Source: Dawidia soli (GTDB taxonomy: Bacteria > Bacteroidota > Bacteroidia > Cytophagales > Cyclobacteriaceae). From it: a stretch of 64,000 bases of DNA. The translations under genes and the position numbers were made by a program. Numbering within the stretch: position 1 is the first letter of the stretch; each line of letters starts with the position of its first letter. Below the pieces are notes generated by a model. It did no database searches, was not told where the DNA came from, and saw only the letters and a list, made by a program, of their open reading frames with translations. The stretch is taken from the NCBI RefSeq assembly GCF_018598185.1, contig NZ_JAHESC010000004.1:124001-188000 (forward strand), written 5' to 3'. Below are positions 52,950-63,662 of the stretch, in pieces.

Positions 52950-54599
52950 ATGTCAAACAGATTTCTGAAAATTCATCCCGCCGACAATGTTTATGTGGCG
53001 TTGACAGACCTGAAGGCCGGTGAAACACTTACGGTAGACGGCGGCAGGCCGCTGACACTCGTAGACGATGTTCCTGCCAAACACAAATTTACCGAGACGG
53101 CCCTGCAGCCCGATGACGAAGTGCTGATGTACGGCACGCTCGTAGGCAAGGCGGTGCAGCCCATTCGCCAGGGTGGCGTGATCGGCACGCATAACCTCAA
53201 ACACAAAGCCGCCCCCTACTCGGGTCGCACCAAGGCGTATAGCTGGGCGCCACCCGACGTATCGGCCTTTAAAGACAAAACATTTATGGGCTACCACCGC
53301 GCCGATGGGCAGGTGGGCACCGCCAATTACTGGCTTATCGTGCCGCTGGTGTTTTGTGAGAACCGGAACGTGGAAGTGGTTACAGAAGCATTTACGACCG
53401 AGCTGGGCTTTGGCAAACCGGAAGCCTATAAGGACTATGTTCACGAGCTTGTGCAGGCATACCGCAACGGTGGTACCGCCACGCTCGACACCGTGCCGTT
53501 CCAACCGGCGGGCGCGGCGACAGACAACCGCCTTTTCAAAAATATTGACGGTGTAAAATTCCTCACGCACCAGGGCGGCTGTGGCGGCACGAGGCAGGAT
53601 GCACAAACCCTGTGCAAGCTCCTCGCAGGCTATATTCACCATCCGAACGTGGCCGGCGCTACCGTGCTGAGCCTCGGGTGTCAGAACGCCGAGATCAAAA
53701 CATTGCAAGAGCGTTTGAAAGAGCTGGACCCGAAGGGTGCCAAACCGGTATTCATCCTCGACCAGCAACAAAGCGGAACCGAGCAAGAGCTGTTGACACA
53801 AGCCATTCGCCAGACCTTTGCGGCACTGGTGGAAGCCAATAAGATCGAGCGCAAGCCTGCTCCTCTCAGCAAGCTGGTGGTAGGCCTGAAGTGCGGTGGA
53901 TCTGATGGATTCTCGGGGATCTCTGCTAACCCGGCCATCGGTCATACATCCGACCTGCTGGTGACGCTGGGCGGCAGCACGATCCTGTCCGAGTTTCCCG
54001 AGCTGTGCGGTGTGGAGCAAGAGCTCATCAACCGCTGCGAAGAAGATTCTGCCGGCGAGCTGTTCATTAAACTGATGCGTACGTACTCCAACGCTGCCGA
54101 AGCCGTGGGCTCGGGCTTTGATATGAACCCCTCTCCGGGCAACATCAAAGACGGTTTGATCACGGACGCGATCAAATCGGCAGGAGCGGCCAAGAAAGGC
54201 GGCACCGCGCCGGTAGCCGATGTGTTGCAATACGCCGAGTATATCAAAAAGCCCGGCCTCAACCTGCTGTGTACGCCTGGTAACGACGTAGAAAGCACCA
54301 CCGGCACAACCGGCTCGGGCGCACAGATCATTCTGTTTACCACCGGCCTGGGCACGCCTACGGGCAACCCCGTATCGCAGGTCGTAAAGCTCTCGACCAA
54401 CACCAAGCTGGCCGAGCGCATGCCCGACATCATCGACTTCAACACCGGTTCGATTATATCAGGCGAAAAAACCATCGACCAGGTCGGCGAGGAGATTCTC
54501 GACTTCATCATCGAAGTGGCCAGCGGCCGCGTTACCGCCAAATCGGTAGCCCTCGGCCAGGACGACTTCATCCCCTGGAAACGGGGTGTTTCGCTGTAA
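52950..54599 (+). CDS. uxaA: altronate dehydratase, full-length
   Basis: This 549-residue enzyme has an N-terminal SAF domain (about 10-85) and a long C-terminal UxaA domain (GYHRADGQVGTANYWLIVP, then LTHQGGCGGTRQDAQTLC, LGCQNAEI, GLKCGGSDGFSGISANPA, CTPGNDVESTTG). It removes water from D-altronate to give 2-keto-3-deoxygluconate, feeding KdgK and Eda. The conserved Cys residues fit its iron-dependent mechanism. The ATG at 52950 directly follows the operator region. It is monocistronic. Confidence 0.94.
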   Translation: MSNRFLKIHPADNVYVALTDLKAGETLTVDGGRPLTLVDDVPAKHKFTETALQPDDEVLMYGTLVGKAVQPIRQGGVIGTHNLKHKAAPYSGRTKAYSWAPPDVSAFKDKTFMGYHRADGQVGTANYWLIVPLVFCENRNVEVVTEAFTTELGFGKPEAYKDYVHELVQAYRNGGTATLDTVPFQPAGAATDNRLFKNIDGVKFLTHQGGCGGTRQDAQTLCKLLAGYIHHPNVAGATVLSLGCQNAEIKTLQERLKELDPKGAKPVFILDQQQSGTEQELLTQAIRQTFAALVEANKIERKPAPLSKLVVGLKCGGSDGFSGISANPAIGHTSDLLVTLGGSTILSEFPELCGVEQELINRCEEDSAGELFIKLMRTYSNAAEAVGSGFDMNPSPGNIKDGLITDAIKSAGAAKKGGTAPVADVLQYAEYIKKPGLNLLCTPGNDVESTTGTTGSGAQIILFTTGLGTPTGNPVSQVVKLSTNTKLAERMPDIIDFNTGSIISGEKTIDQVGEEILDFIIEVASGRVTAKSVALGQDDFIPWKRGVSL

Positions 54600-54656: not shown

Positions 54657-54796
54657 CGGTATGATGGCTGTCTCCCGACCGCCGTGAAGCTACAGTTCAC
54701 TACACCCGTTCAACACTTCACGACACATCTCTTTAATAGCCTGAATCTTCTTACCATCCTTGTACCGTTAATCACGGCATAAACTCATTCAGGCAT

Positions 54797-56245
54797 ATGA
54801 AAACGCGCATCCTGTTGTCATCCTTTATCCTGGCGGTGCTCATTCCGCTGCTGCACCCGGTATCCGGTCAGACCGTATCTGCCAATACCAAAACACAAAC
54901 CTCTGTCCACATCGACAACGATCGTTACCGCTGGTCGCAGAAAACCAACGGCAGCGAGTTCAACGTGGAGCTGCGCGGCCGCGTGGAAGTGACCGACGAC
55001 GATCGCGATATCAAGTCGCTGTCAGACGGCGGCTACCTCGAGATCAGCAAGACCGTCTTTGGCAGCAAGCGCTCGGTGGTGATCGAATCGCAGGGCGGCG
55101 GCAAGCTGAAACGTTCCTATTACGAGGGCCGCACGCTGGCGTCGTGGGAGGATGGCGGCAAAGCCTGGCTGGCAGACATTCTGCCCACCGTGGTACGCAC
55201 CACGGGAATCTCCGCCGAGGCCCGCGTGGAGCGCTTCTTCCGGAAGGGCGGCGCAACGGCCGTGCTAAACGAAATCAACCGGTTGGAGGGCGACGGTGTG
55301 CGGGCGCAATATGCGGCGCTGCTCATGAAGCAGCCGGTGCCGGTGGCGGAATATGCCGGCATCATCCGCTCCGTTAGCAGCAAGATCGACTCCGATCATT
55401 ATAAGGCCGAGTTCCTCCGCAACAACATCGGCAAATTCATTCAGACGAAGGAAGCTTCGGCGGCGGTATTCAGCGCCACGTTGCAGATCGAATCAGACCA
55501 CTACCGTGCCGGGGTGATCAAAGAGGCGCTGCGGGGCGATAACGTTACACAAGAAAATATTACCACCGCATTGCAAGCCGCATCCGAGATCGAGTCGGAC
55601 CATTATATTACCGAAGTGCTGACAGCGCTCTTACAAAAACCTAACCTGAGCGACGTCGCCATGGAAAAGCTGATCGAAACGACGACGGCCATCGAGTCCG
55701 ATCACTACAAAACGGAAATTCTCAAACGTGCGCTGAACAAGCCCAACCTGTCGAAGCGTTCGTACGAAAACCTGATCGAGTCGACACGCCACGTGGAGTC
55801 GGATCACTACCTGTCGGAGATCATCAAGGAAATGCTGTCGAAGAAGCTGACACCGGAGGTCATCGCCAGCACGGCGCAGATCCTGGGGTCGATCGAGTCG
55901 GATCACTACCGGTCGGAAGTGTTGGGTCGGTTGTTAAAACAGGAGTCGCTGAACGACGATCTGCTGGCCACGACACTAGACCTCTGCAAGGCGATGGATA
56001 GCGACCACTACAAATCACAGGTACTGCAACAGGCCGTGGCCGAAGTCAAAACCGACGGGCAGCTGGCCTCGGTGTTGCAGGTGGTGCATAGCATGGACTC
56101 CGATCACTATAAGACCGAGGTCATGACACGTGCCGCCAACCGGGTGAAGGCCGGTGGTACGCCGCTGAAAGATACCTATCGCGAGGTGGCGCGTTCGATC
56201 TCGTCGGAGACCTACTACGGACGGGTTTTACGGGCGCTCGATTGA
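54797..56245 (+). CDS. secreted protein with nine 34-residue SDHY repeats
   Basis: This 482-residue protein has a signal peptide (1-24, ending VSGQ), a beta-rich N-terminal domain (about 38-125) and then nine tandem repeats. Each repeat centres on an Ile/Val/Met-Glu/Asp-Ser-Asp-His-Tyr core followed by (K/R)(T/S)E(V/I)L. Core serines lie at residues 199, 233, 267, 301, 335, 368, 402 and 435; a degenerate ninth core is near 470 (SSETYY). Spacing is 33-35 residues, so an alpha-hairpin solenoid of TPR or HEAT character is likely. From memory, related repeats and the N-terminal domain occur at the ends of some M56 peptidases. The kinase gene starts 30 bases downstream, so it is probably the periplasmic part of that signalling unit. 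Confidence 0.8.
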   Translation: MKTRILLSSFILAVLIPLLHPVSGQTVSANTKTQTSVHIDNDRYRWSQKTNGSEFNVELRGRVEVTDDDRDIKSLSDGGYLEISKTVFGSKRSVVIESQGGGKLKRSYYEGRTLASWEDGGKAWLADILPTVVRTTGISAEARVERFFRKGGATAVLNEINRLEGDGVRAQYAALLMKQPVPVAEYAGIIRSVSSKIDSDHYKAEFLRNNIGKFIQTKEASAAVFSATLQIESDHYRAGVIKEALRGDNVTQENITTALQAASEIESDHYITEVLTALLQKPNLSDVAMEKLIETTTAIESDHYKTEILKRALNKPNLSKRSYENLIESTRHVESDHYLSEIIKEMLSKKLTPEVIASTAQILGSIESDHYRSEVLGRLLKQESLNDDLLATTLDLCKAMDSDHYKSQVLQQAVAEVKTDGQLASVLQVVHSMDSDHYKTEVMTRAANRVKAGGTPLKDTYREVARSISSETYYGRVLRALD

Positions 56246-56275: not shown

Positions 56276-57358
56276 ATGCGCCATCCGCTCCGCCGATTTA
56301 CCTGGATCATCCTGCTGGCCGTTGTGTTTTTCTTCATGCTCTTCGTGTACCTGCACGTGAGCGAGACGGGAACGTTTCCCGACCTGCAGCGCAGCGGCTC
56401 CGGTATACTTTTCAGCATCCTGACCGGAAGTATACTGGCCGTGACCCTATACTTCGCCAACAGCGCGCTGGACCGGTGGATCCCCTGGCGCACGTACTTC
56501 ACCTCGCGGCTGCTGGTCGGCTATGGCACCGATGTGCTGCTGGCGCTGGGCGTGACCGTTGCTGCCGGTGCGGCATTCCTTTCGGTGGCCGGTGGCAATG
56601 TGCTGTGGCCGGGCTTCTCGGCGCGCGATGCGGATCTGTACTGGAAGCTGACGATCCTCTACCTGGCCGCGTTGTTCATGTACAATGTCATCTACGCGCT
56701 GCTCTTTTCGTACCAGCACTACACGGTCACGCAGATCGAAAAGCTGCAACGGGAGCGCCGCCAGCTGGAGCTGCAGTTCGAGGCGCTCAAAAGCCAGATC
56801 AGCCCGCACTACCTTTTTAACAGCCTGAACACCATCTCGTCGTTGTTGTATAAAGACCTACCGTCGGCCGAACAATTTATCCGCCGCCTGGCGCAGACAT
56901 ACCAGTTTATCCTGACGACGCGCAGCAAACCGTATGTATCGTTGCAAGAAGAGATCAGCTTTGTCGAGTCGTATTATTACCTGCTCCGTATCCGCTTTCA
57001 GCAACAGCTGCACGTGGAGATCAACCTGCCGCCCAACATCATGAACAGCAAGATCCCCCCGCTCACCCTGCAGATGCTGATCGAGAACGCGGTGAAGCAT
57101 AATCCCATGCATACCGACAAGAAGCTGTTCATTTACATTACCGCGCAAGACAACACCCGGCTGAAAGTCATCAACACCAAAACCGGCACAGCCAACGGTG
57201 TTACGTCGTTCCAGATCGGCCTGGACAATATCCAAAAGCGCTACCGTTTCTTTACCGACAAGAAGATCGAGATCCGTGACGATGAGAAATTCACCGTATC
57301 GCTTCCGCTCATACTCTTTCCGCCCAAGCTGAAACCTCAACTGAACGGCCACGCATGA
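56276..57358 (+). CDS. LytS-type membrane sensor histidine kinase
   Basis: This 360-residue kinase has four membrane helices (about 8-28, 45-62, 85-105, 125-148), a linker coiled coil (about 152-172) and a His_kinase domain with phospho-acceptor H178 in SQISPHYLFNSLN. The N-box LIENAVKHNP (N271, H275) and GLDNIQKRY are intact, so it should be an active kinase of the LytS/YehU type. It overlaps the next gene by the ATGA at 57355-57358. Its partner is the LytTR regulator two genes downstream. Confidence 0.92.
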   Translation: MRHPLRRFTWIILLAVVFFFMLFVYLHVSETGTFPDLQRSGSGILFSILTGSILAVTLYFANSALDRWIPWRTYFTSRLLVGYGTDVLLALGVTVAAGAAFLSVAGGNVLWPGFSARDADLYWKLTILYLAALFMYNVIYALLFSYQHYTVTQIEKLQRERRQLELQFEALKSQISPHYLFNSLNTISSLLYKDLPSAEQFIRRLAQTYQFILTTRSKPYVSLQEEISFVESYYYLLRIRFQQQLHVEINLPPNIMNSKIPPLTLQMLIENAVKHNPMHTDKKLFIYITAQDNTRLKVINTKTGTANGVTSFQIGLDNIQKRYRFFTDKKIEIRDDEKFTVSLPLILFPPKLKPQLNGHA

Positions 57359-58410
57359 AACGGTATTTTATTCATCACCCCGTCTTCCGCATCCTGGCGC
57401 CCGCTTTTTATGGCGCGTTGGTCTACTTGTTGGTCCTGATGATCAACGACACCGTGGCCCAGATCAACGACCTGTTCAACAGCCAGGAGCTGTACCTGTG
57501 CATCGGGCTTACGTACCTGGCCTTTGAATCGTGTCGCTTAGTGATCGTGCTGCAGCATCGCTTTCAACGCGATAAACGTACCGCGCGGCTGATCATGACG
57601 CAGGCGCTGGCTACGCTGATCTTGTCCACAGGCCTTGTCATGGTCGGACTGCACTTGTATTTTCAATACGTGATCGGCTTTGGCATGACGAACGAGCAGT
57701 TCGCGGTCTTCTTTTCCATCTTTGCCGTAACGGCGGCGCTATACAACCTGCTTTACATCAGCGACTATTATCTCCACCAGGAAAATACGCTCAAGCTACA
57801 AGCAGAAATGCAAAACAAAGCAACCCTGGAAGTAGAGATGCAGGAGTTCCAGCACGACATCAATCCGGAGCTTTTGTACGAGAGCCTCGAAAGCCTGATC
57901 GGCATTATGTACCGCGACGTAGAGAAGGCGGAAGCATACATCGACTCGCTGGCCACCGCCTACCGGTATGTGCTGACGAACCGGCACCACGAGCTGATCG
58001 CGGCAGAAACTGAAATTGACGCGGCACGAAACCTGGTGCGGCTGTTGAATGAGCGGTACTTCGGCCAGCTCACACTCGAAGTAACCGACGACGAAGGCCT
58101 GACAGACGCGATGCTGATACCCGGGTCGCTGCCCATCCTGGTAGAGTACATCGTGCGCAACACGATCGTGACGCGTTTCGAGCCGTTGTCCATTACCTGC
58201 TACACAGAAGACAACTACCTGGTGCTACAAAGCAAGCTGAACGACCGGTTGATACCGTACGCAGACAGCGAGGTGGCTTTCATGCGGTTACAACGCTCGT
58301 ACTCGCTCTACAGCGACCTGCCGCTGATCAAGGTAAAGGCGTACCAGGAAAATTATATTAAATTACCGCTGCTTCGTGTAGAGGAAGCTACCCCTTTGGA
58401 GGCCCTATGA
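57355..58410 (+). CDS. degenerate LytS-like protein (predicted pseudokinase)
   Basis: This 351-residue protein repeats the layout of its upstream neighbour: about four membrane helices (20-35, 48-66, 78-105, 118-138), a coiled linker and a kinase-like domain. Aligned with the active paralogue, the acceptor block ISPHYLFNSL becomes INPELLYESL, so the His is Glu172. The N-box MLIENAVKHN becomes ILVEYIVRNT, so Asn is Tyr265 and the second His is Asn269. ATP binding and autophosphorylation are therefore not expected. Retention of helices, coupling by ATGA at both ends and an uninterrupted frame argue for selection as a regulator of the first kinase or the response regulator, perhaps as heterodimer partner. 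Confidence 0.85.
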   Translation: MKRYFIHHPVFRILAPAFYGALVYLLVLMINDTVAQINDLFNSQELYLCIGLTYLAFESCRLVIVLQHRFQRDKRTARLIMTQALATLILSTGLVMVGLHLYFQYVIGFGMTNEQFAVFFSIFAVTAALYNLLYISDYYLHQENTLKLQAEMQNKATLEVEMQEFQHDINPELLYESLESLIGIMYRDVEKAEAYIDSLATAYRYVLTNRHHELIAAETEIDAARNLVRLLNERYFGQLTLEVTDDEGLTDAMLIPGSLPILVEYIVRNTIVTRFEPLSITCYTEDNYLVLQSKLNDRLIPYADSEVAFMRLQRSYSLYSDLPLIKVKAYQENYIKLPLLRVEEATPLEAL

Positions 58411-59796: not shown

Positions 59797-60783
59797 TCAA
59801 GGTACGCTTATCTTCCAATCTCCTAAAATCGCTTCGACCGTGTAGGCAGCCGCTTCGGCGGCCGTGAGCACATGCGCCCACGGTGCGCGTGTATTGCTAT
59901 CGGCCCCCGGACCGGTAGATGCGTACTCGGCATAATAAGCGGTCTTCTCGGCATCAGGCTTATCCCAATTGTGCCAGCCTTCCTTCTTAACCTGTTTGTC
60001 GAGATAACAACGGATAAAAACCGTCTTGGCCCAGGGGCGCCAGGGCCGGCCCAGGTAGAACGATCCTTCGGGCGCGTCGCCCGTAATCTTGCAGTCGAGG
60101 AAAACAAAGCCGTGCGCGGTGGTTTCCAGCGTAGATGCTGCGGTGACATAGCCACCGGGCTTTTTGCAAAAGATCGTACAATGATCAAAGACAGCGGTGG
60201 ACCAGCCAAAGATAAAATCGACCGTGCCTTCGATATAGCAGTCTTTGTAATATTGCCGGCTTTTCTCTCCGAAGGGATAGAGCGTATCCTGATGGCCAAG
60301 GAAACGGCAATGCTGAAACATCACGCGATCGCCGGCTATCCGCATGGCTACCGCCTGCCCTACCGGCCCGGCGCTGTTTTCGAAGGTGATGTTCTCGGCA
60401 TGGAAGTCGTCGGCAAATACAAAGAAGGAGGATGAACCGGTTGTGCCCATTTCTTCGCCGAAGCGATTTTTCTTCGAAGCATAGTCGTCGTAGGTCACGA
60501 CGGTCCTGGTCACGCCTTCGCCTGTAAGGCGGACGTTGGTTTTGGACGTTGCCAGCGTGAGCTTCTCTTTATAGACTCCCTTTCGGAGCAGGATCCGTGT
60601 TTGTTTCTTGCGGAAATCAGGCACGGCGTTGAAGGCATCCTGAAGCGTGCGAAAATCGCCGGAACCATCCTGCGCTACTATAAAATCATAGGACACTGTT
60701 TCCGGTGCCAGTGTGGACTGCGCACGGACGTGCAGCGTGAATATCGCCAGCACGATCGTCCAGGTTATACGACGATTCTTCAT
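59797..60783 (-). CDS. pectinesterase (CE8), secreted
   Basis: This 328-residue secreted enzyme has a signal peptide ending HVRAQ and the CE8 beta-helix motifs: GQAVAMRIAG with Q143, GHQDTLYP with Q165-D166, GTVDFIFG with D189, and LGRPWRPW with R246. It removes methyl groups from homogalacturonan, preparing it for lyases or hydrolases. The gene starts 3 bases after the GH43 stop. All catalytic residues are intact. Confidence 0.95.
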   Translation of the reverse strand: MKNRRITWTIVLAIFTLHVRAQSTLAPETVSYDFIVAQDGSGDFRTLQDAFNAVPDFRKKQTRILLRKGVYKEKLTLATSKTNVRLTGEGVTRTVVTYDDYASKKNRFGEEMGTTGSSSFFVFADDFHAENITFENSAGPVGQAVAMRIAGDRVMFQHCRFLGHQDTLYPFGEKSRQYYKDCYIEGTVDFIFGWSTAVFDHCTIFCKKPGGYVTAASTLETTAHGFVFLDCKITGDAPEGSFYLGRPWRPWAKTVFIRCYLDKQVKKEGWHNWDKPDAEKTAYYAEYASTGPGADSNTRAPWAHVLTAAEAAAYTVEAILGDWKISVP

Positions 60784-60786
60784 GTG

Positions 60787-62400
60787 TCAGGGCTTTACGG
60801 GCGTGACAGTGAACCAATCGAAATCTGCGTAACCGGCGTCGTTCGTCTTACCGGTGCGGGTACAGAAGATCCCGGTCTTGGCGCCAATCCAGCGGCCGGG
60901 CTCGGCCTGAAACATTTCGCCGGCGGGTGTATAGGTTGTGCCGTCGGTACTATAGCTGAATTGACAACGGGCTTCTTTGGTAACGGTCACGCGCAGATAT
61001 ACTGTGCTGTCTTTCATTTTTGCTATTGACCTCTCCGTATCCGGCTTGCCGCCGGGAGCGTCCGCGCAACGCGCGTGTACCAGGTGTACTCCTTCCGGGG
61101 TATTGCGTAGCGCGAGCATGGCATAGGCCTGTCCGTAAACGATCAGGCCGGCGGCCTCGCCGGGTAGCGTTGAGTGTGGATAAAAAGCGAGCTTGGTGGT
61201 GACCGTAAATTCTTCCGCGGGGAATTTCTGTAACAGGATGTTGGGTATATCCCAATAGTTCTTCGCGTCGACGGGTATCGGCGCCGCATAAAGGCGCAGT
61301 ACGCCTTTTGCGGGATACAAGAACGACCACATGGCCGCAGGGTTTGCTTGCCATTGCCATTGCAGGCCCAGGATGCCACTGTTGAAGTCGTCGCTTTCAG
61401 GCGGTGCTGCGATAGATGCCTTAGTCTTTCCGATGTTGGGCTTTTTATGGGTTGCCACAGGTTCTCCCTTGCCATCGCCGTCTTGATCCATCCCGATGAC
61501 GGGCCAGTCGCCGCGCCACTGCATGGGCTGCAGGTGTACAATGCGGCCGTAGGCGCCCTTATCCTGGAAGTGCAGAAACCAGTCTTCGCCGGTGGGTGTG
61601 TTGACCCACGCTCCCTGGTGCGGGCCATTGATCGCGGTAGTGCCCTGGTCCATCACCACACGACGCTCATAGGGACCGTAGATGTTGCGCGACCGCAACA
61701 CCAACTGCCAGCCGGTAGAGACTCCGCCGGCGGGTGCGAAGATATAATAGTAGCCGTTACGCTTGTACAGCTTCGGGCCTTCGATGGTAGGATCTATGCC
61801 GTGGCCGTCATATATCAATGTACCGGCGTCGAGCGTGCGGGTGCCCTCGGGGTTGAGGCGTTTTATCGCGAGTACGCTTTTTATACCGGCGCGGCTCCCG
61901 GCGTAGGCATAGACCAAATATACTTTCCCGTTGTCATCCCACAAGGGACAGGGGTCGATCAGTCCTTTGCCGGCTTCTACCAGCACAGGTTCGCTCCAGG
62001 GACCGGTAATCTGCGGGGCAGTAGTGACGTATATGCCAAAGTCCGGGTCGGGATAATAAATGTAGAACAGGCCACCGTGGTGCCGAATGGCAGGCGCCCA
62101 TACACCGTTGCCGTGCTGTGTTTTGGCAAAGTGATCGTAGGGCGGCTGACGCGGCAACGCATGGCCCACGAGCGACCAGTTGACCAGGTCCCTGGAATGC
62201 AGCAGCGGCAACCCGGGAACGGCGTCGAAGCTGGAGGCGGTCATGTAGTAGTCGTCGCCGACGCGGATGGCGTCAGGGTCGGAGTAGTCCGCATGTAGTA
62301 TGGGGTTGCGGTACGTGCCGTTGTTCTGGTCGGAGGTGTAGACCTGGGCCATTGTGGTGATGCTGGCCCCAACGATCTTGCAGATCAGTATAAATCTCAT
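60787..62400 (-). CDS. glycoside hydrolase family 43 enzyme with C-terminal lectin-like domain
   Basis: This 537-residue secreted enzyme has a signal peptide (about 1-18) and the five-bladed GH43 domain: catalytic base Asp41 in ADYSDPDAIRVGDDYY, the LIDPCPLWDDNGK block and the acid Glu in TIEGPKLYKRNGYYYIF. The C-terminal 190 residues form a concanavalin-like domain (from about 335), as in GH43 subfamily 12. Members cleave arabinose, xylose or galactose side chains, here probably from rhamnogalacturonan. ATG at 62400 is chosen; it lies 14 bases after the DUF4861 stop. Confidence 0.93.
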   Translation of the reverse strand: MRFILICKIVGASITTMAQVYTSDQNNGTYRNPILHADYSDPDAIRVGDDYYMTASSFDAVPGLPLLHSRDLVNWSLVGHALPRQPPYDHFAKTQHGNGVWAPAIRHHGGLFYIYYPDPDFGIYVTTAPQITGPWSEPVLVEAGKGLIDPCPLWDDNGKVYLVYAYAGSRAGIKSVLAIKRLNPEGTRTLDAGTLIYDGHGIDPTIEGPKLYKRNGYYYIFAPAGGVSTGWQLVLRSRNIYGPYERRVVMDQGTTAINGPHQGAWVNTPTGEDWFLHFQDKGAYGRIVHLQPMQWRGDWPVIGMDQDGDGKGEPVATHKKPNIGKTKASIAAPPESDDFNSGILGLQWQWQANPAAMWSFLYPAKGVLRLYAAPIPVDAKNYWDIPNILLQKFPAEEFTVTTKLAFYPHSTLPGEAAGLIVYGQAYAMLALRNTPEGVHLVHARCADAPGGKPDTERSIAKMKDSTVYLRVTVTKEARCQFSYSTDGTTYTPAGEMFQAEPGRWIGAKTGIFCTRTGKTNDAGYADFDWFTVTPVKP

Positions 62401-62414
62401 ATCGATCATTTGTC

Positions 62415-63662
62415 TCACTTCACCACCTCGACCTTCACCGGCACTGCCAACGCTGCAGCAACACCGTCCAGATAAGCATAGAATTGCTGCTCCGTCCCGA
62501 TTCCGCCCGGCTCCCCTACCCAGGCCGCCAGGAAATAATACTCCACCAGCTTGTCTGCCGGTGTTAGCTGCACAAGGTGACTATAGGCATCCGCCGTAAA
62601 GCCCGTTCCTTCTCTGGGCTTGAAGAATACGGCAAGCCCGAGGTTATCATCATTCAAACTCTGTTTACCAAATGTCGCCAGATACCCCCAATGTTTGTCA
62701 TCTCCATTCTTCGTCACCAGCGGGGCCGCTTTATCTTTTACAATGCCGGTACAAAAATGCTCCGGCTTCTGCGAGAACATCAACCGCAGATGACTTATCC
62801 GCGTACCCGCATGGATAGACAGTTCCGACTGCACGTCGTACTTCTTGCCCTCCACCTGCCAACCTGCATAGTGCGTTTCAATAGCCGAGTACACCACACC
62901 ATTTTCCGAGATCCGGCAACGTACGCTATCCGTCTTTTCAATCCGTACAGCCTGCCCATTCGAAAGTATCGCCGGCGACCCGAGCCCCACGGCCTTGCCG
63001 ACCTTCATCACGTCCATGCCCCACGGCTGCATGTGATGATAGGATTCGAAGCCGTCGAGGCCGATTTGCTGGAGTACCATGTCGGTGGTCTTTTTGCCGA
63101 ATACGTCTGTGGCGTTGCGTTGATCCAGGTAAAAACGATAGCCGACCTTGTCCGACTCCCAGCCGGGCCCTTCATAACGGATGAACCACGAGTGGTCCTT
63201 ATGCTCCGGCGGCACATGCAGGGATGTGACGGGTTGGAATCTTCCGCCCATATACTCCCGGCCTTGCCAGGCACCCTCTACTTTATGGGATAGCTCCGCT
63301 TGCGTGCGCTTAGGATAGTTGCGCGCGATAGCAGCGGTGGGATGGAACCGGATGGTCAGCGTGCGGGCAACGGAGGGCGCGAGTGTATCGAGAACGAAAG
63401 CCACCCCGGCATCAGCGCCACCATGGTTATACTGACTCGGAATTTCGGTCGTGCCGTCCAGGACGGCAAACGCCCTGGGATTGAACTGGGGAATTGACTT
63501 TTTTAGTTGCGCAGTTGTAACTAACACCAGGGCATCGGCCCGGCCCGTGGGGCCGGCGTTCGTCACCTTTATGGTGAATGCCTGGGGGAAGTTTTTTTTC
63601 AGGTCCTGGGCACTTAGTGCCGATGTTGTCAGGACCGTCAGCAGTATAAATAATTTTTTCAT
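62415..63662 (-). CDS. DUF4861-family secreted protein
   Basis: This 415-residue protein has a signal peptide ending ALSAQ and the DUF4861 pattern: GAWQGREYMGGRFQPVTSL, SWFIRYEGPGWESDKVGYRFYLDQRNATDVFGKK in pieces, and MGMDVMKVG-like WGMDVMKVGKAVG. The fold is probably all-beta and related to pectin utilisation proteins; no activity is known to me. It lies between GH105 and GH43 with 1 base after the GH105 stop, so it acts in pectin breakdown at the cell surface or periplasm. Confidence 0.85.
   Translation of the reverse strand: MKKLFILLTVLTTSALSAQDLKKNFPQAFTIKVTNAGPTGRADALVLVTTAQLKKSIPQFNPRAFAVLDGTTEIPSQYNHGGADAGVAFVLDTLAPSVARTLTIRFHPTAAIARNYPKRTQAELSHKVEGAWQGREYMGGRFQPVTSLHVPPEHKDHSWFIRYEGPGWESDKVGYRFYLDQRNATDVFGKKTTDMVLQQIGLDGFESYHHMQPWGMDVMKVGKAVGLGSPAILSNGQAVRIEKTDSVRCRISENGVVYSAIETHYAGWQVEGKKYDVQSELSIHAGTRISHLRLMFSQKPEHFCTGIVKDKAAPLVTKNGDDKHWGYLATFGKQSLNDDNLGLAVFFKPREGTGFTADAYSHLVQLTPADKLVEYYFLAAWVGEPGGIGTEQQFYAYLDGVAAALAVPVKVEVVK

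Follow-up and report, generated by a model that had tools for sequence, protein, structure and literature searches.

Few natural bacterial pseudo-histidine kinases seem to have been studied. DivL of Caulobacter has a HisKA-type core, and its gene presumably does not lie beside those of a LytS kinase and a LytTR regulator; RetS and GacS are encoded as separate systems, and the regulator of the Fas system belongs to the LytTR class. Termed a pseudo-histidine kinase in the literature, DivL is described in passages of one account as a natural kinase-like protein without kinase activity, which carries PAS sensor domains and reads a phosphorylated receiver (PMC4211667). Control of one kinase-like protein by another through a heterodimer is described in part of a further account for RetS and GacS, both of which are also able to homodimerise (PMC12675982). 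In Corynebacterium, a pseudokinase variant of ChrS acting with HrrS is reported, in the relevant passages, to have an effect beyond that of deletion, with heterodimers of both kinases seen (PMC9491836). The Fas locus of group A Streptococcus houses two kinase-like membrane proteins, FasB and FasC, and one ComE-like regulator, FasA; according to passages on the system, a FasB-FasC heterodimer was shown by two-hybrid, one of the two kinase-like proteins is a proposed pseudokinase, to whose N-terminal half the authors assign sensing, and a putative binding site lies upstream of the target (PMC12675982).

The module considered here lies in a window of 64,000 nucleotides from Dawidia soli, the whole stretch of DNA analysed, and consists of four genes and an operator-like repeat (Table 1). 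A unit of three genes had been proposed in a sequence-only reading, of which the order stands but the extent does not. The pseudokinase is joined to both the histidine kinase (HK) and the response regulator (RR) by 4-base overlaps (ATGA), and these, together with its intact frame, are borne out by the coordinates. The gene for the secreted repeat protein (P4) ends 30 nt before that of the HK in the window, with a median spacing of 81 nt across loci. Flanking the module (52950-54599 and 59797-62418) are genes which, by look, we take to be altronate-dehydratase-like, pectinesterase-like and family-43-glycosidase-like.

Table 1. Features of the module, with positions counted from the first letter of the window.
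Feature	Position	Strand	Characteristics
Putative LytTR operator	54692-54725	+	ACA[A/G]TTCANTACA in two copies, 21-bp period
P4, secreted repeat protein	54797-56245	+	Signal-like N-terminus, eight SDHY repeats; leading gene of the module
HK, active-looking LytS-type histidine kinase, 360 aa	56276-57358	+	His178, N-box Asn271, G-box Gly315
LytS-type pseudokinase, 351 aa	57355-58410	+	Glu172, Tyr265, Ala308; acidic Glu179
RR, response regulator, 257 aa	58407-59180	+	Receiver (Asp56, Thr81, Lys101) and LytTR DNA-binding domain

A conserved pseudokinase lacking catalytic residues

Global alignment of the HK and the pseudokinase gives 21% identity over a layout common to both, in line with the membrane helices, linker and domain length that the two had been said to share. 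Both match PF06580 (His_kinase) in Pfam, with 75.4 and 39.4 bits respectively against a cut-off of 25.2. PF06580 is the sole Pfam match of the pseudokinase at E <= 1, and the RR is composed of PF00072 and PF04397. At the phospho-acceptor site, His178 of the HK (SPHYLFNSLN) corresponds to Glu172 of the pseudokinase (NPELLYESLE), and in the N-box Asn271 (IENAVKHN) corresponds to Tyr265 (VEYIVRNT), both as first described; Gly315 of the G-box corresponds to Ala308, a point absent from the earlier description. The N-box Asn and the G-box Gly serve ATP/Mg. Within the organism's own genome, the His is kept in 24 of 25 PF06580 domains (22 by pattern, with L349 and L350 read by eye) and the sole exception is the pseudokinase, so that its loss exceeds chance.

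At 14 loci in 59 related genomes, a protein search found HK, pseudokinase and RR in this order, all without the His. The orthologue counts below derive from 390 genomes of the window's own family, searched with a profile; matches to the pseudokinase at E <= 1e-60 occur in 125 of these genomes and are mostly full-length. These are separated by a gap from ordinary kinases, which start at about 5e-54, and none of six comparators from below the gap (L246-L251) was classed as a pseudokinase. With one genome of another family (G040), the search provides 126 distinct orthologues. A separate contig scan demanded Asp or Glu at position 172; its 79 motif-biased loci are excluded from the 126-orthologue counts and were used for the models, neighbour clustering and the work on P4, the operator and DCA.

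What the pseudokinase conserves is the loss of catalytic residues together with an acidic position 179, and not Glu172 or Tyr265 themselves. None of the 126 orthologues has the phospho-acceptor His. Position 172 is acidic in 96 (Asp in 74, Glu in 22) and another residue in 30 (Asn 6; Gln and Gly 4 each; Lys, Arg, Ser and Thr 3 each; Phe, Val, Leu and Met one each). The N-box Asn at position 265 is kept in five and lost in 120, with one gap, the position being mostly Ser, Ala or Cys, and the G-box Gly is absent from all 125 readable sequences. His, Asn and Gly are all three gone in 121 of 126. Position 179, which corresponds to Asn185 of the HK, is Glu in 122 and Asp in 4. Glu172 and Tyr265 as conserved substitutes, the conservation of which had been proposed as a check, are thus rejected, and a fixed catalytic replacement at position 172 is disfavoured by its non-acidic residues.

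The open reading frame is a conserved pseudokinase, not a product of decay. Frames of 330-383 aa are found in 124 of the 126 orthologues, and purifying selection acts on the pseudokinase in close pairs: over three such pairs, two of them with high dS, its dN/dS is 0.049-0.051 (NG86) or 0.079-0.109 (YN00), near the 0.030-0.077 (NG86) or 0.039-0.111 (YN00) of the HK. A decaying duplicate kinase could be read from the catalytic domain being less conserved than that of the HK, from the two interrupted copies, both in draft genomes (G366/L193, 258 aa, where the HK is in two pieces and the RR is also short, and G381/L232, 259 aa), and from G015, where remnants of P4 and of the LytTR part persist in the absence of HK and pseudokinase (L324). 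For the family it is nevertheless rejected and hardly credible, given the absence of His from every orthologue, the full-length frames, dN/dS values of about 0.05-0.11 and a spread over 125 of 390 family genomes as well as other families. Homologues with His and Asn, or with frameshifts, had been named as what would point to decay; they amount to none with His, five with Asn and two interrupted copies, and the early judgement that decay is unlikely holds. Unorthodox catalysis, in which the acidic residue at 172 or 179 would itself be phosphorylated or act as a fixed phospho-mimic, would suit the Asp or Glu found at 172 in 96 and at 179 in all 126 sequences, but it is very improbable in view of the Gly, Asn, Gln, Lys, Arg, Ser, Thr, Phe, Val, Leu or Met at 172 in the other 30 and of the loss of the N-box Asn in 120 and of the G-box Gly in every readable case.

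A quick maximum-likelihood tree was built from 88 chosen rows, made up of 30 pseudokinases, the 30 HKs paired with them and 28 other LytS kinases. Its branches are long; the pseudokinases group as a single clade (SH-aLRT 100) and the partner HKs as another (SH-aLRT 99), and many sub-clades match between the two.

Gene neighbourhood and the secreted repeat protein

The HK lies directly upstream of the pseudokinase in 126 of 126 cases, with its His present in all 124 readable sequences (one gap, one unaligned), and the RR lies downstream in 124. The gene order, retention of which had been put forward as a check, is therefore kept, and a chance neighbourhood is rejected on the same counts. The two cases without RR are L232, which is cut off by a contig edge, and a second locus (L168 2031-3518, G114:C553). 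The latter holds a complete-looking pair of HK and pseudokinase, with no RR-like frame in the remaining 1.5 kb of the contig. HK orthologues at E <= 6e-86 occur in 115 of the 390 genomes, 114 of which have the pseudokinase; in G390 the contig ends inside it.

The pseudokinase family extends to other Cytophagales families and to Bacteroidales. In an order-level sample, 31 of 291 genomes have matches at E <= 1e-58, and none of the 30 examined (G829 was left out) has a His at position 172; L299 has one two places before it in the alignment. A phylum sample gave matches at E <= 3e-80 in six of 395 genomes, three of them from other families of the class. Carriers named in the motif-biased scan include Parachryseolinea silvisoli (92% identity), Ohtaekwangia koreensis, Chryseolinea, Fulvivirga and Imperialibacter, along with Marinifilum, Labilibaculum and Ancylomarina. 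Of 22 loci labelled as Bacteroidales or as a family of that order, 21 have the HK upstream and all 22 have the RR downstream.

Neighbour clustering covered 186 loci, equal to 141 distinct pseudokinases as the collections share genomes. In 178 of these loci the HK is immediately preceded by a P4 homologue, always on the same strand, and the next-commonest additional neighbour cluster occurs in 22. Counted by distinct pseudokinase, P4 is present at 135 of 141 loci; at five of the remaining six the contig ends too early to hold it, which leaves 135 of 136 with room. The true exception is L102 from a Bacteroidales MAG, where the other three genes occur without P4 and part of the HK is masked; P4 may hence not be an absolute requirement. 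Within a set of 39 genomes, P4 and the pseudokinase are found in the same 11, and a further one (G015) has weak P4 pieces only; across 198 phylum genomes P4 occurs in five, four of which also have a pseudokinase match.

The fifth, G589, has no pseudokinase match listed, and its P4 relative adjoins BlaI/BlaR1 genes. At this locus (L323 3583-6988, G589:C1) a BlaI repressor, an M56/BlaR1 protein with P4-type repeats at its own C-terminus and a separate P4 relative stand in a row, so that a P4-like secreted repeat protein accompanies a second membrane-signalling system. P4 itself belongs to no family above cut-off in Pfam or NCBIfam, two Pfam names appearing in one each of 37 members, and a PDB profile search returned weak matches only, designed helical repeats among them. 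The module of G015 (L324 2479-6020, G015:C299) is decayed: P4 is reduced to a fragment and the regulator to its LytTR half, with a 770-aa ORF between them; HK and pseudokinase are absent, and an operator-like repeat still precedes the P4 fragment.

The operator-like direct repeat

A LytTR site consists of two 9-mers, [TA][AC][CA]GTTN[AG][TG], about 12 bp apart, with which we take the direct repeat upstream of P4 to agree. In the window it ends 71 nt before P4 and its second copy has mismatches; among relatives it is conserved about 100 nt upstream of the module's first gene. A score of at least 16 out of 22 is reached by 114 of 129 distinct upstream regions, to which the relatives that the motif was first read off belong, against 1 of 645 Markov-resampled sequences; the other 15 regions score below 16. 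Half-site pairs are 21 bp apart in 99 of 165 cases. In its own genome, the scan pattern has one exact match, the module's repeat, plus two with 2 mismatches.

With at most one mismatch allowed, the pattern was found at 30 sites in 30 of 196 family genomes, and the reversed pattern in none. By eye, 25 of the sites are upstream of the module, one is upstream of the decayed module of G015 and four are elsewhere, the one in G081 being inside an ORF. The same scan matched 26 of the 47 pseudokinase-positive genomes in the sample, one of them elsewhere. From the conservation of the repeat and its predominant placement before the module, the operon is probably under the control of its own regulator. 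Further targets of the regulator may exist with weaker sites.

Away from the module, an operator-like repeat at L384 3898-3931 (G008:C501) stands about 70 nt before the gene of an 811-aa protein, by look presumably a MacB/FtsX-type permease, and marks a possible second target. Another, at L385 3348-3381 (G152:C36), precedes a protein gene, whose product we take to have a fasciclin-like end, in a genome without a pseudokinase match; here a different LytTR system may use the same type of site. Between the operator and the start of P4, a conserved ATCCTTGTACCGTTAAT at 54756-54772 of the window, present in several relatives, is perhaps a core promoter. A scan for sigma-70-type promoters gave 4 sites where shuffled sequence gave 3.2, and one for terminators gave 7 where shuffled sequence gave 5.3.

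Domain constraint, proposed mechanism and known systems

Mean pairwise identity over 120 complete sets was compared by domain. For the HK it amounts to 25% in the membrane part, 56% in linker and DHp and 47% in the catalytic domain; for the pseudokinase, the respective values are 37%, 44% and 34%. Columns conserved to at least 90% number 3 of 145 (membrane) and 23 of 106 (catalytic) in the HK, and 10 of 140 (membrane), 15 of 94 (linker and DHp) and 4 of 106 (catalytic) in the pseudokinase. Linker and DHp are thus the best conserved part of both proteins. Of the two other parts, the catalytic one is under the tighter constraint in the HK and the membrane one in the pseudokinase. Conspicuous residues in the membrane part of the pseudokinase are R12, G20, Y24, E45, E58, R61 and Y102, and its DHp leucines and Tyr203 are kept. 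The three receiver residues of the RR are 100% conserved over the same sets.

AlphaFold2 models of the HK and the pseudokinase (pLDDT 83.6 and 81.3, pTM 0.59 and 0.58) both begin with four helices, continue with a DHp-like helical pair and end in an alpha/beta domain. The fold matches listed for the pseudokinase are headed by GanS and include the histidine kinases DesK, RetS and DivL, phytochromes and pyruvate dehydrogenase kinases; the kinase domain of GanS (PDB 6SWJ/6SWK) is also the sole PDB sequence-profile match at E <= 0.1 (8.4e-9, residues 168-292). Mean-field DCA on 159 pairs of HK and pseudokinase (Meff 69) gave no convincing interface, with a weak intra-protein control too. At this depth and with this control, the best diagonal offset was -10, offsets 0 and -1 ranked third and fourth, and near-diagonal pairs numbered 2 in the top 30 and 10 in the top 100 (8.8 expected in 100).

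We infer that the pseudokinase tunes its neighbouring HK. The main reading, with a probability of roughly 0.5, is a self-regulated, four-part heteromeric receptor in which the pseudokinase would be the sensing or allosteric half and the kinase the enzyme. P4 would act outside the cytoplasmic membrane as a ligand-binding or reporting partner, and its input would be received by the pseudokinase, in which the membrane domain is under stronger constraint than the catalytic one. Through heteromer formation, the signal could pass by way of the signalling helix and DHp bundle to the active HK, which, judging by its kept catalytic residues, would alone bind ATP, carry the phospho-His and phosphorylate Asp56 of the RR. 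The RR is predicted to bind the 21-bp-phased repeat upstream of P4, a site marked by its conservation, and so to control the operon. Support comes from the conserved catalytic loss, the constant neighbourhood, the joint occurrence of the pseudokinase with HK and P4, the single clade, selection, the inverted constraint, the kept DHp residues and the operator, with the FasB-FasC heterodimer, as described in passages on it, counted as a precedent. More tentatively, and at somewhat less than even odds, the module may be an old Bacteroidia receptor in which sensing and catalysis, as a rule united in a single polypeptide, are split over two LytS paralogues. The catalytically dead paralogue would then be the sensor; a secreted repeat protein, whose kind also occurs next to BlaR1/M56, would drive the receptor, and its own operon would be controlled via one dedicated operator.

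Counted against a split receptor are the DCA outcome, L102 without P4, L168 without an RR in the rest of its contig, and the upstream regions and pseudokinase-positive genomes that lack a good operator match. Adjacency and matching trees are also expected of separate parts in one operon, and the DHp of the pseudokinase is better conserved than its membrane part (44% vs 37%). The latter point would fit a readout resembling that of DivL, where the pseudokinase would bind the RR, perhaps only in its phosphorylated form, through the DHp docking face and not the HK, serving as a sink or feedback sensor. The DHp scaffold is kept as the best conserved domain while catalysis is lost, a kinase-like protein repurposed for reading a phosphorylated receiver is published, in the passages concerned, for DivL (PMC4211667), and DivL (4q20) is among the fold matches, alongside many other kinases. 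By itself, however, such a readout leaves unexplained both the constant place directly after the HK and a membrane half more constrained than that of the HK, and we regard it as unlikely, albeit worth weighing. Those constrained membrane residues, with the polar E45, E58, R61 and Y102 among them, and the linked P4 gene would be accommodated by a separate membrane receptor or P4 partner, serving for example in export, anchoring or as a membrane chaperone of the HK, with no signalling at the level of the DHp. This is rather improbable, as the linker and DHp (44%; 15 of 94 columns at 90% or above) are conserved beyond the needs of a bare anchor.

The widespread, kept pair, nearly always with P4 and usually with the operator, suggests that the kinase look-alike acts as the half that senses or controls in a two-part receptor. 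One sampling provides 126 distinct orthologues, all of them adjacent to their partner kinases in compact units, and the predicted operator is usable as a reporter. The family thereby opens three matters to experiment: the way in which a dead kinase may control a live one, the reason for the tighter constraint on the membrane half of the dead partner, and the role of a P4-type protein, without a Pfam family in the searches, in two different membrane-signalling settings.

The paired arrangement had been called unusual. This stands in so far as the literature searched (LytS, LytTR, pseudo-histidine kinases, Bacteroidetes) holds no report of a conserved LytS-type pseudokinase; it is not, however, without precedent, given FasBCA as described in passages of PMC12675982. 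GanS (6SWJ/6SWK) is titled a histidine kinase, the title making no mention of catalytic loss. DivL, by the passages describing it, has PAS domains, whereas the pseudokinase has PF06580 only in Pfam and four membrane-type helices in its model. The ChrS variant is, in the passages concerned, a laboratory frameshift in the CA domain (PMC9491836), whereas the pseudokinase here is an old family. In the account of Fas, FasC retains the phospho-acceptor, His246, and can dispense with its kinase domain only, while the pseudokinase of the module has lost His, Asn and Gly alike; the Fas proteins have six predicted membrane helices, compared with four in the kinase-like proteins of the module (PMC12675982). 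No P4-like gene is named in the passages of PMC12675982, and the phylum differs from that of Dawidia soli. FasB/FasC/FasA nonetheless appears to be the closest precedent and the nearest in logic, likened here by description: an adjacent pair of kinase-like membrane proteins with one LytTR-class regulator, an order kept in 124 of the 126 loci of the present family.
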